NCBI GenBank assembly: GCA_021741155.1
Contig: JAIOYP010000009.1
Coordinates: 1 to 64,000 of the forward strand
DNA length: 64,000 nt
Direction of reading: 5' to 3'
From: Flavobacteriales bacterium
Lineage (GTDB): Bacteria > Bacteroidota > Bacteroidia > UBA10329
Shown here: piece after piece, positions 13,174 to 24,053 of the stretch
Position numbering within the stretch: the first letter of the stretch is position 1
Layout of the letters: the number at the start of each line of letters is the position of its first letter
Made by a program: the position numbers and the translations under genes
The notes under the pieces: model-generated
What the model saw: the letters and a program-made list of their open reading frames with translations, nothing else
What the model was told of the DNA's origin: nothing
Databases searched by the model: none

Positions 13174-13256
13174 GCCACAGATTCTCAGATTACCACTGAT
13201 TTTCTCAGAAGAGAAAAAATCTGTGTACATCTGTGAAAATCCGTGCATCTGTGGCT
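13174..13256. repeat. CACAGAT-type inverted-repeat element, empty form, copy 1
   Basis: Begins GCCACAGATTCTCAGATT and ends GTGCATCTGTGGCT, so the termini are inverted copies. The interior is a degenerate run of CACAGATT/AATCTGTG units. 9 nt beyond its right end lies the stop of the transketolase C-subunit gene. Same ends as the gene-carrying element at 14234-14701 and the copy at 23914-23992. Confidence 0.85.
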
Positions 13257-13264
13257 AATTCATG

Positions 13265-14218
13265 TCATTTTCTTGCGATGGCTTTTAATGCTGCTTCAAC
13301 GATGCTTTCCGTGTTCAATCCGTATTTCTCCAATAGTTCTTCGGGCGTTCCACTTTCCCCAAAACTGTCATTGACTGCCACCATTTCGATGGGAGCTGGA
13401 TTGTTCAAAGCCAAGGTTTGAGCCACACTATCACCGAGTCCACCATTCTTCTGGTGTTCTTCGGCAGTCACCGCGCAACCTGTTTTGTTAACGGAAGCTA
13501 GGATGGCGTCAACGTCCAAAGGTTTAATGGTGTGAATGTTTATTATTTCCGCATTCACGCCTTTTTCGGCAAGAATGGCTTGGGCTTCAATAGCTTTCCA
13601 AACCAAATGACCTGTGGCGAAGATGCTTACGTCAGCACCGTCAGCAATTTTCCATGCTTTACCAATTTCAAATTTCTGATTCTCAGGAGTGAAATTTGGA
13701 ACTTTTGGTCTTCCGAAACGGAGATAAACTGGACCATCCAAATCAGCAATCGCCTTGGTTGCTGCCTTGGTCTGGTTGTAATCACACGGATTGATAACTG
13801 TCATGTGTGGAAGCATTTTCATCATGCCGATGTCTTCCAGAATCTGATGCGTGGCACCATCTTCTCCCAAGGTCAGTCCAGCGTGCGATGCACAGATTTT
13901 CACGTTCTTTCCCGAATAAGCTACGCACTGACGAATCTGGTCGTAAACGCGACCCGTACTAAAATTCGCAAATGTTCCCGTGAATGGAATCTTACCGCCA
14001 ACCGTCATTCCTGCAGCAATACTGATCATGTTTGCTTCGGCAATTCCAACTTGGAAGAATCGATCTGGATTTTCTTTTTCAAAAGCATCCATTTTGAGCG
14101 AACCTGTAAGGTCAGCGCAAAGTGCCACAACATCCTTGTTCTCTTGTCCCAATTCTTGGAGGCCAGCTCCAAATCCAGAACGTGTATCGCGGTCTTCAGT
14201 TAGTTTTTCGATTGCCAT
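13265..14218 (-). CDS. transketolase, C-terminal subunit
   Basis: 317 aa. Seen: pyrimidine-binding domain with [14 protein letters not shown] (the Glu that activates thiamine diphosphate), [17 protein letters not shown], and a C-terminal domain with [14 protein letters not shown]. It forms the other half of the split enzyme with the product of 16195-17040, transferring two-carbon units in the non-oxidative pentose phosphate pathway. In split-transketolase genomes the halves are normally adjacent; here a vWA gene and a GxxExxY element lie between. Repeat elements flank it on both sides (ending 9 nt from its stop, and starting 16 nt from its start), so it may need its own promoter. Confidence 0.95.
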
Positions 14219-14233
14219 TGATTACATGTTTTT

Positions 14234-14701
14234 AGCCACAGATGCACAGATTTACTCTGATTATTATGATTGTTAAAATACAACTCGTTTGATTTCGACT
14301 GATGATGTTCCAAAGTTCAAAATGAGTCCGACTTTACAGCCAGAACATTTCAAATAATTTAAAGTTTGAGATAGGTCTTCCGCGGCAATGCCTGACTTTG
14401 CCTTCACCTCAAGAATTACGTTTTCAAATATTACAAAATCAGCGAAAAATGAATGAGGAAGAATTGTCCCTTTATAATTTACTGAATACTCTTTTTCTCG
14501 TTCGTAGAATATTTTTCTAGACTGGAACTCTAATTCCAAGGCATCCTTGTATACGATTTCTAAGAAGCCTGCTCCTAAACCATTATGTACATCAAATGCT
14601 GCACTAATAATGCTTTCAGTCTCTTTGGAAAACGGATAGGTTTCTTTCATTAAAGACATATCATCTGTGTAGAATCAGTGAAAATCAGTGTATCTGTGGC
14701 T
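14234..14701. mobile_element. candidate mobile element: CACAGAT inverted repeats enclosing a GxxExxY gene
   Basis: 468 bp bounded by AGCCACAGAT (14234-14243) and its exact complement ATCTGTGGCT (14692-14701). Subterminal sequence on both sides repeats the CACAGAT/AATC(T/A)GTG pattern of the two short elements at 13174-13256 and 23914-23992. The only gene inside is a PD-(D/E)XK-like GxxExxY protein. No transposase, integrase or clear target duplication is visible. It sits between the vWA gene stop and the transketolase C-subunit start. Mobility is inferred from the shared ends and differing contents. Confidence 0.6.
14273..14659 (-). CDS. GxxExxY family protein, PD-(D/E)XK nuclease-like
   Basis: 128 aa. 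Seen: family signature GFLEIVY within GLGAGFLEIVYKDAL (residues 28-42), then a nuclease-like core FFADFVIFENVILEVKAK with Asp and an E-V-K triad spaced as in PD-(D/E)XK enzymes, and a C-terminal Q-x-LNYLKCSGCKVGLILNFG helix-strand. Start ATG 14659; ATG 14650 (MKETYPF) also possible. Family knowledge: small, widespread, function unproven, grouped with the PDDEXK_3 superfamily. Unlike its metabolic neighbours it is enclosed by inverted repeats. Inference: it may cut or process the repeats that flank it. Confidence 0.85.
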   Translation of the reverse strand: MSLMKETYPFSKETESIISAAFDVHNGLGAGFLEIVYKDALELEFQSRKIFYEREKEYSVNYKGTILPHSFFADFVIFENVILEVKAKSGIAAEDLSQTLNYLKCSGCKVGLILNFGTSSVEIKRVVF

Positions 14702-14714
14702 GAAAAAATGTTTT

Positions 14715-16109
14715 TCATTTCAATTCCACAAGTTGTGATTTGCCTGAGAAAATTGTAAAATCCTGTTCAATTGTGTAAAAAGCCCTTTTCGATCCAGTTG
14801 GTCTGAATACCACTTTATACGTTCCTGGTTGAAGTGGAATGCTTTCGGATGTGAGGTTTGGATCGAGTGAATAAATCCAATTCAGATTGACTCCTTCCTT
14901 GACAAACACATCACCAACACCCTTTGAGTTTCGCATGATATGTGCCATTCCAGGTTGCGGAATCTCAACAGTGGTGGTATGGCTCTGCGCCACATTCACC
15001 CCAGAAACATACATCCTTGGAAGGGTTTGAATTTCCAGATCATAAGTCCCGACCAAGTAGCGTTGTTTTTTACTCACTTTTTGGAGGTTCAGCGTGTTTG
15101 TCTCACCACCTTTTCGGACAATTGCCTGAAGATTCTCGTAATCGTGTTTTCCTTGAACCTTCAAAATCAGGTCACCTTGAGGCGCATCAATAGCGATGAT
15201 GTTGTGAATACCAGGAATCAGGACGATGCTATCTTTTGTAACGGACGGTACCGTGTGAACCTTCATTCGATAAGTAGTCAACGGGTCAATGCCCAATGTG
15301 TCTGGCAACCCACGGTGGTTCATAGTATGAACAATATTGTAAACCATCTGACCTGAAATGGCATCGTAGAACGTCATGTTCACATCTGTTTCGGTTGGAT
15401 TACTGTTGATGTCGAGCAGATTGACTTGAACCGAAGTAGGGTTCAAGGCCTGAGAAATAACCACGTTCAAAATGTCTTTGAAGGAGCGTTCATTCTTCGC
15501 ATTGAAATAACTTCCAATGCACTTGAATCGGTCAATCAATTCCAAGTCGAGTCCTATCCCAATTACGAACGGTTTTAGAACGATTCCTTTGGCCTGTAAT
15601 GCCATCGAAATCGCGCAGGGATCACCATCACATTCTTCAATTCCATCGGTAATCAGAATAATCATGTTCCGGCAATTTCCGCAGGGCGGGAAATCTTTAG
15701 CTGATTGCTCTAAACTATAAGCAATCGGGGTGGTTCCTTTGGGCTGGATTTTGTCTAAAGCTTTCTTTATGGCGGGTACGCCACCACCACCAAAGGGAAC
15801 TTCCAACCTCGTGTCCTTGCAATCGCGTTGTGTGCTTGAAATGAAAGGGCTTTGATGTCCGTATGCTCGAAGGGCCAATTCGAGATTCTCCACATTTTTC
15901 AGACTGTCCAGCAGCTCGTTTAAGAGTTGCTTCGCGATGTCAATTTTCATCCCGCTTTCCCAGCGTCCGAACATGCTCTGAGACCCATCGAAAACGAATA
16001 GAATACGGTTGAGCGGTTTTGCTTTTTCCTGCGCGGAAGTTGTGTTGCTGAAACTGAGCAAAAACCCAAGCGCCAACATCAAGACAGAAATATGCTTTCT
16101 AAAATTCAA
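14715..16109 (-). CDS. secreted von Willebrand factor A domain protein
   Basis: 464 aa. Seen: signal peptide to TSAQ, then a vWA domain with MIDAS residues DGSQS (41-45), the TT of PKGTTPIAYSL and ITDGIEECDGDPC; a Cys-rich stretch (CGNC, CDGDPC) lies in the same domain. The C-terminal half consists of beta-rich modules without a T9SS tail. Family knowledge: resembles Bacteroidota vWA proteins that bind protein partners through a metal site. The start codon is a TTG at 16109, the only one giving a complete signal peptide; an ATG ten codons on would lack its basic head. It separates the two transketolase genes. Function unknown. Confidence 0.75.
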   Translation of the reverse strand: MNFRKHISVLMLALGFLLSFSNTTSAQEKAKPLNRILFVFDGSQSMFGRWESGMKIDIAKQLLNELLDSLKNVENLELALRAYGHQSPFISSTQRDCKDTRLEVPFGGGGVPAIKKALDKIQPKGTTPIAYSLEQSAKDFPPCGNCRNMIILITDGIEECDGDPCAISMALQAKGIVLKPFVIGIGLDLELIDRFKCIGSYFNAKNERSFKDILNVVISQALNPTSVQVNLLDINSNPTETDVNMTFYDAISGQMVYNIVHTMNHRGLPDTLGIDPLTTYRMKVHTVPSVTKDSIVLIPGIHNIIAIDAPQGDLILKVQGKHDYENLQAIVRKGGETNTLNLQKVSKKQRYLVGTYDLEIQTLPRMYVSGVNVAQSHTTTVEIPQPGMAHIMRNSKGVGDVFVKEGVNLNWIYSLDPNLTSESIPLQPGTYKVVFRPTGSKRAFYTIEQDFTIFSGKSQLVELK

Positions 16110-20830: not shown

Positions 20831-20872
20831 AGTGGAAAGTTAATTGGTTTGCTGTAAGGTTGGCTCGGAGTA

Positions 20873-20989
20873 CCGCGCGAGGGATGGAAGCGGCATCCTT
20901 TTTTGTTTTTCACAAAAAAGATAGATCCGCCTGAGGCGGACCGACCCGACTTTGGGTGGGCCGTTGCGTAGGAGAGGGACGCGCCCAAA
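20873..20989 (+). repeat. structured intergenic element, copy A
   Basis: Shares with 48104-48200 a 33-nt block (2 differences) starting CCGCGCGAGGG and containing AGCGGCATCCTTTTTTG, then AAAAAAGATA and a 3' GGGACGCGCCCAAA. Foldable: GCGCG/CGCGC closing stem, GGATG/CATCC, CTTTTTTG/CAAAAAAG, TCCGCC/GGCGGA and ACCC/GGGT hairpins. Located between divergent genes, in plus orientation before the DUF4476 gene. Confidence 0.8.
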
Positions 20990-23480: not shown

Positions 23481-23901
23481 AACCTAGAAAACGTTCTCGC
23501 CATTTCGGTTCAGGAATCCAGCAAACCTCTTTTTTGCCAAACCACTTGTAGCGATTTTTTGCCACCCAATTGTAAACTGGGTTTCTGATGAATTTGGGAA
23601 CAACCAGAAATATTGAGCTGAGTTTCCACAGCCCATTCAAGTGTTTGGCTAGCCGAAGTGCCGCATCACTTTTTACGTAGGTTTTTCCGTTTTCAAGTAG
23701 GACAAGACTTGCGGTGTAATCTTCGGGAAGTTTCGCTTCTTGAAGTTTTTTCTGACCAAACTCCGATTGCAACGAGGCAAACTGAATGTTCTCTTTCTTG
23801 TTCCGTTTTAAGACAAACTGAACCGAACCAGCACACAGATTGCAGACACCGTCAAACAGCAGTATCGGGCCTTCATAACAGGGCAATCGGGTCTTAAGCA
23901 A
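23479..23901 (-). CDS. DCC family (DUF393) thiol-disulfide oxidoreductase-like protein
   Basis: About 135-140 aa; the start is uncertain. Seen: LLFDGVCNLCAGSVQFVLKRN with the DxxCxxC motif naming the family, FASLQSEFGQ, and the C-terminal RNPVYNWVAKNRYKWFGKK block with a further Cys. Family knowledge: thioredoxin-like small proteins of unproven substrate. No ATG precedes the core in frame except one inside or beyond the adjacent CACAGAT repeat (24009); TTG codons at 23901 and 23886 are the best starts. Inference: a repeat insertion removed the native start region. The last residues and stop come from a palindrome. Confidence 0.75.
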   Translation of the reverse strand: MLKTRLPCYEGPILLFDGVCNLCAGSVQFVLKRNKKENIQFASLQSEFGQKKLQEAKLPEDYTASLVLLENGKTYVKSDAALRLAKHLNGLWKLSSIFLVVPKFIRNPVYNWVAKNRYKWFGKKEVCWIPEPKWRERFLG

Positions 23902-23913
23902 TTGACATGAAAT

Positions 23914-23992
23914 AGCCACAGATTCACAGATTTTTACGGATTTTTCACAGATAATCAGTGTTCTTTCTGTGGAAATCTGTGCATCTGTGGCT
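23914..23992. repeat. CACAGAT-type inverted-repeat element, empty form, copy 2
   Basis: 79 bp running from AGCCACAGAT to ATCTGTGGCT, identical termini to the gene-bearing element at 14234-14701. It lies 12 nt upstream of the first possible start of the DCC gene and keeps that reading frame open throughout. Confidence 0.85.
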
Positions 23993-24053
23993 AAAAATAT
24001 GTTTTTCAATATGTTTGGTAATAATACCCGCTTGTCCTAGTCGTCATCGTTCA

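Follow-up and report, generated by a model that had tools for sequence, protein, structure and literature searches.

Homing genes interrupt their target, and recombination-promoting nucleases (Rpn), which are of the PD-(D/E)XK class, carry to our knowledge no flanking arms. RAYTs (TnpA-REP) are HUH/Y1 enzymes that are vertically inherited, and we know of no target duplication in RAYT systems. Excerpts of the published accounts describe REPIN/RAYT systems as a nuclease-type gene together with palindromic repeats, with many matching gene-less copies and long persistence (PMC3116915, PMC2817692, PMC8266576, PMC8049555), and an excerpt on Rpn links that nuclease family to mobilisation (PMC5350276). 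The window (the whole stretch of DNA that was analysed, 64,000 nucleotides) contains an element of about 470 bp in which one gene, of the GxxExxY family, lies between two inverted arms. Judged from sequence comparisons, this is on balance probably a one-gene element whose nuclease recognises its own arms and whose gene-less palindromes are non-autonomous relatives, an arrangement resembling REPIN/RAYT without the HUH transposase. Searches of an open-access (PMC) library returned no description of GxxExxY genes with such arms.

As read in the sequence, AGCCACAGAT starts at position 14234 and ATCTGTGGCT ends at 14701, and the claim of the sequence-only reading that AGCCACAGAT and its complement bound a 468-bp unit is correct, both termini being present at these positions. 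The gene occupies 14273–14659 on the minus strand and encodes 128 aa, its identity being supported by TIGR04256, PF13366, an AlphaFold2 model and a fold search. The arm on the gene's 3′ side (14234–14262, plus strand) consists of AGCCACAGAT G CACAGAT TTA CTCTGAT, and the arm on its 5′ side (14663–14701, minus strand) has the minus-strand reading AGCCACAGAT A CACTGAT TTT CACTGAT TCTA CACAGAT. With weaker outer ends included, the full inverted repeat extends over 14211–14724, with arms of 52 nt (14211–14262 and 14673–14724) that are 77% complementary; by eye, outer ends of two kinds recur among this genome's other copies. No other ORF of at least 50 aa lies wholly inside the element. The earlier statement that no transposase is present therefore stands for the interior of the element, where the sole ORF of at least 50 aa is the nuclease, and its scope is the element plus one HUH gene of the genome. 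A RAYT was considered as the driver and rejected, since the genome's one Y1_Tnp gene found has neither a tract nor an outer repeat nearby. The window contains CACAGAT 21 times, compared with 8.65 expected, and none of 100 shuffles reached so high a count. Genome-wide, the AGCCACAGAT..CACAGAT pattern has 63 matches, overlapping readings included (reversed control, 0), and GCCACAGATNCAC has 97 in this genome (control, 0). An Rfam scan of the window returned tRNA only, and promoter and terminator scans showed no excess over shuffles.

Two gene-less palindromes in the window, at 13174–13256 (site B) and 23914–23992 (site C), have the same spelling as the window arms. They had been described as short elements sharing the termini of the gene-bearing one; both are true palindromes, but the left end of the 13174 palindrome is CGCC rather than AGCC. 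The underlying idea, same ends with differing contents, is borne out as a general pattern. The site C palindrome is enclosed by a larger inverted repeat (23881–24037), formed by GGGCAATCGGGTCTTA at 23881–23896 and an imperfect partner at 24022–24037. This outer GGGCAATCGGGTCTTA repeat is found on at least one side of 7 of the 21 CACAGAT elements examined here (L014, L028, L216, L218 and L223 are among the places seen), and it may be a MITE family in its own right or a favoured target. Fourteen of the 21 elements examined in this genome have no outer GGGCAATCGGG repeat, and seven lie inside one. A different short repeat, at 20865–20923 of the window, has copies here and in G001, G004 and G008 and is unrelated to CACAGAT.

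Larger repeats also surround tracts elsewhere. In sister genome G007, 11 of 12 tract hits lie inside a larger repeat, and CACAAAG tracts (L224–L234) take the same position in each of eleven near-identical copies of that repeat. These copies were at first candidates for a recent burst with clean borders, an idea rejected since the tracts sit inside the larger repeated unit, which is probably an insertion sequence; lying within it, the tracts are not used there for element borders. The motif GTTACTxxTCAG recurs outside the arms of L043, L144, L146, L150 and L152 (G015) and of L170 (G033); within 250 bases of a gene it always faces outward, and it has 10 matches in 806,844 bases of loci. The gene-less elements of G018 share, by eye, interior sequence with the 3′ flank of the gene.

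The window protein scores 127.6 bits against TIGR04256 (cut-off 35) and 116.8 bits against PF13366 PDDEXK_3 (cut-off 22), the sole domain above its cut-off, and the assignment of a PD-(D/E)XK-like GxxExxY gene to the element is thereby confirmed, both scores lying far above their cut-offs. The G-x-x-E-x-x-Y motif reads GFLEIVY, and the nuclease core residues, in window numbering, are E34, D74, E84-x-K86 and Q98-x3-Y102, the E-x-K plus Q-x3-Y motif being shared with Cas4/RecB-family nucleases. Among 88 relatives, D74 and K86 are invariant and E84, Q98 and Y102 are at least 90% conserved; because the core residues are conserved, nuclease activity is expected. The AlphaFold2 model, built on the 88-sequence alignment, has a pLDDT of 95.9 and a pTM of 0.88. 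Its nearest PDB fold is SSO0001 (4ic1; E 2.9e-4), which we take to be a Cas4 protein, followed at E 0.005 or weaker by LHK-Exo, RecE, the Cas4-family ACE1 and Cas4 Pcal_0546, with tRNA-splicing endonucleases among the weaker matches. The predicted fold is nearest to Cas4/RecB-type PD-(D/E)XK nucleases; by sequence, PDB chains gave no match to the protein, and neither did PADLOC or PHROGs.

The gene is evidently under purifying selection, with dN/dS of 0.03–0.15 in 4 of 12 ortholog or paralog pairs, the other eight having saturated synonymous sites. Of 148 genomes sampled from the window's phylum, 74 have GxxExxY genes, and relatives occur in 8 of 72,556 plasmid records, six of which were opened. 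Phage records held no relative, and 68 viral stretches matched a pattern and none a relative; spread by viruses was rejected as an explanation on these grounds. Annotated neighbours on plasmids include a Fic family protein in Treponema and elsewhere radA, fabD/fabG and adenine deaminase, with no cas genes among the annotated neighbours of five plasmid loci. On a Sphingomonas parapaucimobilis plasmid (L308) the gene lies between fabD and fabG, and a CGCGAAG-type tract is seen on its 5′ side only.

This genome holds five GxxExxY genes, all five of which are tightly enclosed by inverted arms, and each has its own spelling: CGCAGAG/CGCAAAG, CACAGAG/CACGGAG, a long CACAGAG arm, CGCGGAT/CACGGAT, and the CACAGAT of the window. 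The arms are inverted and composed of tandem units of about 7 bases, spaced about 8–11 bases. G015, a related genome, yielded 20 matches, and the 17 elements read there display the arm types CACAGAT, CACAAAG, CGCAAAG, CGCAGAT, CACTAAA and TACGAA. To score the arms, the downstream flank was reverse-complemented and its local similarity to the upstream flank taken, in a first set of 174 genes (the best-scoring part of long lists, containing 80 named loci), in 109 held-out genes, and in 319 control ORFs, non-overlapping and drawn from those named loci. Scores of at least 16 were obtained for 128 of the 174 first-set genes (60 of the 80 named loci), 81 of the 109 held-out genes and 38 of the 319 control ORFs, and scores of at least 20 for 99 (45 named loci), 52 and 11, respectively; with the flanks defined a little differently, an earlier count was 55 of 80 genes against 38 of 515 controls. 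Inverted flanks are thus commoner at GxxExxY genes than at control ORFs, a comparison that had been proposed. Genes without such flanks, which had been named in advance as contrary evidence, do exist as the smaller part of each set, with 46 of 174 and 28 of 109 below the threshold; some of these are decayed, and one intact miss is Methylobacter L254.

The two arms of an element also match each other specifically. Across 14 genomes, the mean own-arm score is 21.7 compared with 14.2 for permuted arms (sd 0.62, maximum 17.0 in 10,000), and the own arm is the best partner, ties counted, in 55 of 76 elements. Named loci led to seven genomes (Komarekiella, Aeoliella, Methylobacter, Gracilimonas, Dyadobacter and one MAG each of Pyrinomonadaceae and Planctomycetota), and these gave 29 matches, 7 of them already first-set loci, and 24 of the 29 score at least 16; the five below are both Methylobacter matches (one decayed), 1 of 10 in Aeoliella, and a broken Gracilimonas copy that accounts for two rows. 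Six plasmid loci score 24 (Bacteroides finegoldii, protein WP_032839887.1), 23 (Bernardetia) and 9 to 13 (the other four). The logo of 46 distinct arms of this genome reads A-GCCACAGAT-n-CACnGAT-TTn-CACnGAT-ttnn-CACAGAT, in which nine columns are fixed because the arms were picked by GCCACAGAT. Units two and three have, in their free columns, C, C, G and A at 91–96% and the last T at 96% and 76%, and the second base (87% and 74%), the fourth base (65% and 59%) and the spacers vary. Within genomes, protein and tract similarity are correlated (r 0.48; 0 of 5000 permutations).

When all protein columns were scanned against base 2 of the unit (CAC or CGC), the C-terminal tail came out on top. Elements with CGC mostly end in R-x-[V/A]-N, often VNNL or VNGL, and those with CAC have Ile before the Asn or another tail. 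Among the 79 unambiguous discovery elements, a Val/Ala tail accompanies G in 34 of 35 and an Ile tail accompanies A in 14 of 14, with an overall fit of 71 of 79; the exceptions are L264, L258, L102, L203, L184, L198 and L268, which have G without a Val/Ala tail, and L002 (RLAN), which has A. Two genes of the same genome, G015, encode proteins that are 92% identical, yet L144, with VINGTL, has CACAAAG and L146, with VVNGL, has CGCAAAG. The tail rule was fixed in advance and then applied to the 109 held-out genes, which come from genomes unused before and include no identical protein, though possibly relatives of named genomes. With 48 scorable and six ambiguous, the rule was right in 37 of the 42 unambiguous cases (Val/Ala with G, 14 of 16; Ile with A, 3 of 3; other tails with A, 20 of 23), the misses being L348, L400, L342, L346 and L356. 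Fisher's test of Val/Ala against the rest gives 1.2e-6 with kinship ignored. On a tail-free tree of 121 rows, 24 independent pairs were obtained, of which on average 17.4 go the same way and 0.05 the opposite way (sign p 1.5e-5), compared with 5.9 and 6.0 for shuffled tails; these pairs use all branches of a quick tree, unsupported ones included, and the starred branches alone provide 3. The held-out tree alone gives 7 pairs, 5.5 the same way and 0 opposite (p 0.06). The last base of the unit (G or T) was tried in the same manner and set aside, as it correlates with many protein columns in what looks like clade structure. Because each gene has its own spelling, the two arms agree, and the spelling tracks the C-terminus, the protein very probably reads its arms.

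The sequence-only reading suggested that GxxExxY genes and CACAGAT-type tracts occur together, and the genomes bear this out: over 59 genomes, the tract pattern gave 158 hits in the 41 with the gene and 3 in the 18 without it (reversed pattern, 12), so the short repeats are not common where the gene is missing. With the genes' own arms included, at least two hits are present in 18 of the 41 genomes with the gene versus none of the 18 without (Fisher 4.5e-4), and hits and gene correlate with a Spearman coefficient of 0.54 over the 59 genomes and 0.48 without G001–G008. Among the 150 hits listed, 15 are within 1 kb of a gene, and there are 11 further hits, six of them in G006; when those 15 are removed, at least two hits are still found in 16 of 41 versus 0 of 18 genomes (p 0.0012). 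Of the genus members, the two that carry the locus V gene have 97 and 33 hits of the window spelling, two of the 97 being the window gene's own arms, and the seven that lack it have 14, 1, 1, 1, 1, 0 and 0, three of these seven being only 70–83% complete; the 14 matches are those of G004. Among 57 dispersed tracts from nine genomes, 31 are best matched by a gene arm of their own genome, where about 6.3 would be expected, and those of G016, G021, G028 and G031 do not, on average, fit their own genome's genes best. G033 carries a dispersed CACGGAG..ACACAAAG family (contigs C3, C6, C24, C36 and C38), a spelling that none of the genes read in that genome has.

Elements whose flanks are homologous occur at five loci within the genus; the gene names at these loci (aldehyde dehydrogenase, transketolase and others) are readings of the translations. 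Filled and empty sites, proposed for comparison among strains, have both been found at the same place among sister genomes. Site A, the junction of the window element, is filled in G008 and empty in G001 (two overlapping contig ends) and G004–G007, locus I is empty in G001, G003 and G005, and locus IV is empty in G001. The orthologous junction of site B has no tract in G001, G003, G004, G005, G006 or G007, and the site C palindrome is absent from its orthologous junction in G002, G004, G006 and G008. At locus IV, about 1.6–1.7 kb of other sequence takes the element's place in G004 and G002, with an ORF in G004. Compared with the flank trees, loci I and V show a patchy distribution of the element, which implies gain, precise loss or exchange more than once. 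The search for target duplications, also proposed, gave no clean one at sites A, B and C or loci I and IV, where divergence is too high; a TTAA duplication is possible at locus I, short repeats exist at site A, and none were seen at locus IV. Some junctions hold other arrangements: a lone arm of locus IV spelling lies at the site A junction in G003 (L207, C331, about 1695–1796), the site B junction in G008 (L206, C9) has a gene-less palindrome with CACAGAA units, and the arms of the G008 locus V gene are of the CACAGAA/CACAGAG type, the 5′ side bearing a whole palindrome in place of a single arm.

At shared sites, the arms are either conserved or both re-spelled together. L001 and L174 at locus I, the best of six pairs, have arms identical at 42 of 44 and 51 of 55 positions while their synonymous sites differ by 56%; arm identity is weaker in the other ortholog pairs (for example, 39 of 48 with 43 of 51, and 29 of 43 with 35 of 50). 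In L002, also at locus I, both arms are re-spelled from CGC to CAC, and the protein is 67–70% identical to the other four. L001 (C12) and L002 (C55) belong to one assembly, G000, in which they occupy homologous junctions with elements of differing spelling; this pair may reflect a mixing of two related organisms, and the assembly has possible slight contamination (3.85%). The gene can apparently persist for long periods at the same sense-strand gene junctions.

Matching arms, conserved cores, joint re-spelling, and the covariation of tail and unit base 2 indirectly support the reading that the arms are the nuclease's own recognition sequence, and the gene-less palindromes would be non-autonomous relatives that carry the arms only. 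Nuclease protomers may bind the tandem units and cut at or near the palindrome, either as a duplex or as an extruded hairpin, after which host repair would copy or capture the element at a new place or replace a resident copy. As a purely hydrolytic nuclease cannot join ends, host repair would have to complete the process, and hydrolysis followed by host repair would fit both the missing fixed target duplication and the concerted re-spelling of arms. As to the earlier suggestion that the protein may itself mediate spread or processing, it very probably reads the arms, but some tracts ride inside other repeats, and movement of all copies by this protein is therefore not required.

It is rather unlikely, though deserving of weight, that the nuclease reads the arms while serving the host or merely persisting, for instance in the processing of palindromes or junctions, and that other transposons spread the gene-less copies. 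The low dN/dS of the four computable pairs, the several loci common to different species, the tracts inside the larger G007 unit and the GGGCAATCGGG repeat, the orphan palindromes of G004, and the scarcity of relatives on plasmids and their absence from phages would all suit such a role, whereas most of the elements examined have no outer repeat, tract numbers follow the presence of the gene, and the occupancy of loci I and V is patchy against the flank trees. We give little credence to a role of the arms in RNA, where they would pair or be processed in the transcript and control expression, with the protein possibly cutting RNA. The arms do abut the start and stop codons, the gene lies in sense orientation with its neighbours in 142 of 172 cases with both neighbours found (31 without), same-strand triples number 58 of 69 for the gene against 236 of 357 for controls, and tRNA-splicing endonucleases appear among the weaker fold matches. 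Between the arms of gene-bearing elements, however, the spacers agree at only 71% compared with 93–96% for the unit C, A and last base, values that are inflated because the sample is the 74 elements scoring at least 20; in this genome's arms the cores are kept while the fourth base and the spacers drift, a pattern more like motif recognition than like selection for base-pairing in a helix, and no Rfam family fits.

That the agreement of the arms is purely mutational, template switching between inverted repeats homogenising them without any protein reader, is very improbable: spacer changes are sometimes common to both arms, as at locus IV between G000 and G003, but such a process leaves unexplained why the protein tail covaries with the unit base, why the arms are conserved beyond synonymous sites, and why the pattern is specific for the gene relative to the 319 control ORFs. 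Least credible of all is a defence or toxin-type nuclease with incidental flanks. Small PD-(D/E)XK nucleases do occur in defence systems, and the Fic family neighbour in Treponema points the same way; the protein nevertheless has no PADLOC or PHROGs match, and the other annotated neighbours are radA, fabD/fabG and adenine deaminase.

The one-gene element with self-recognised arms accordingly stays the favoured reading, and it may extend, more tentatively and with slightly less than an even chance of being right, to a transposase-free class in which each sequence-specific nuclease carries its target as arms, the tail is a partial protein-to-DNA code, and the gene-less palindromes of several phyla are the non-autonomous offspring. 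If so, a family named after a motif would turn out to be a type of genetic element whose enzyme-to-target rule can be read, and the specificity of a large uncharacterised nuclease family could be read from its flanks. A set of palindromic intergenic repeats would be accounted for, and many natural nuclease/target pairs would be available for protein engineering. L144 and L146, near-identical proteins with differently spelled arms, make the rule directly testable.

Compared with known systems, the GxxExxY element resembles homing endonuclease elements in having a selfish-looking nuclease gene with putative sequence-specific recognition, and is unlike them in that the gene has a tract on either side and the empty junctions are tract-free, save for the lone arm in G003. 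Like Cas4, the protein has a PD-(D/E)XK core with Q-x3-Y, consistent with the fold match at E 2.9e-4; unlike Cas4, the window protein is about 128 aa long and has two Cys, too few for a four-Cys iron–sulphur site. It belongs to a different family from Rpn. Gene-less inverted-repeat elements that carry the ends of a gene-bearing one, and terminal inverted repeats, are shared with MITEs and insertion sequences, but the arms of the GxxExxY element are tandem units, and the only gene inside is a nuclease rather than a known transposase. At sites A, B and C and loci I and IV, which are diverged, no fixed-length duplication of the kind left by a DDE-type MITE stands out clearly, TTAA being possible at locus I. 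The closest likeness in organisation is to REPIN/RAYT, as the GxxExxY gene is bounded by inverted repeats of a type that also occurs in many gene-less copies dispersed through the genome. Unlike a RAYT, the protein is a PD-(D/E)XK nuclease with no HUH Y1 domain (PF01797), and unlike REPINs, the arms are tandem units of about 7 bases in many spellings, matched separately for each gene and tracking a residue of the protein. By analogy, the GxxExxY element would function like REPIN/RAYT while falling outside the HUH definition, and is neither a demonstrated MITE of a known transposase nor a target-splitting homing gene; if this is true, it represents a second, unrelated solution to the task that REPIN/RAYT performs.
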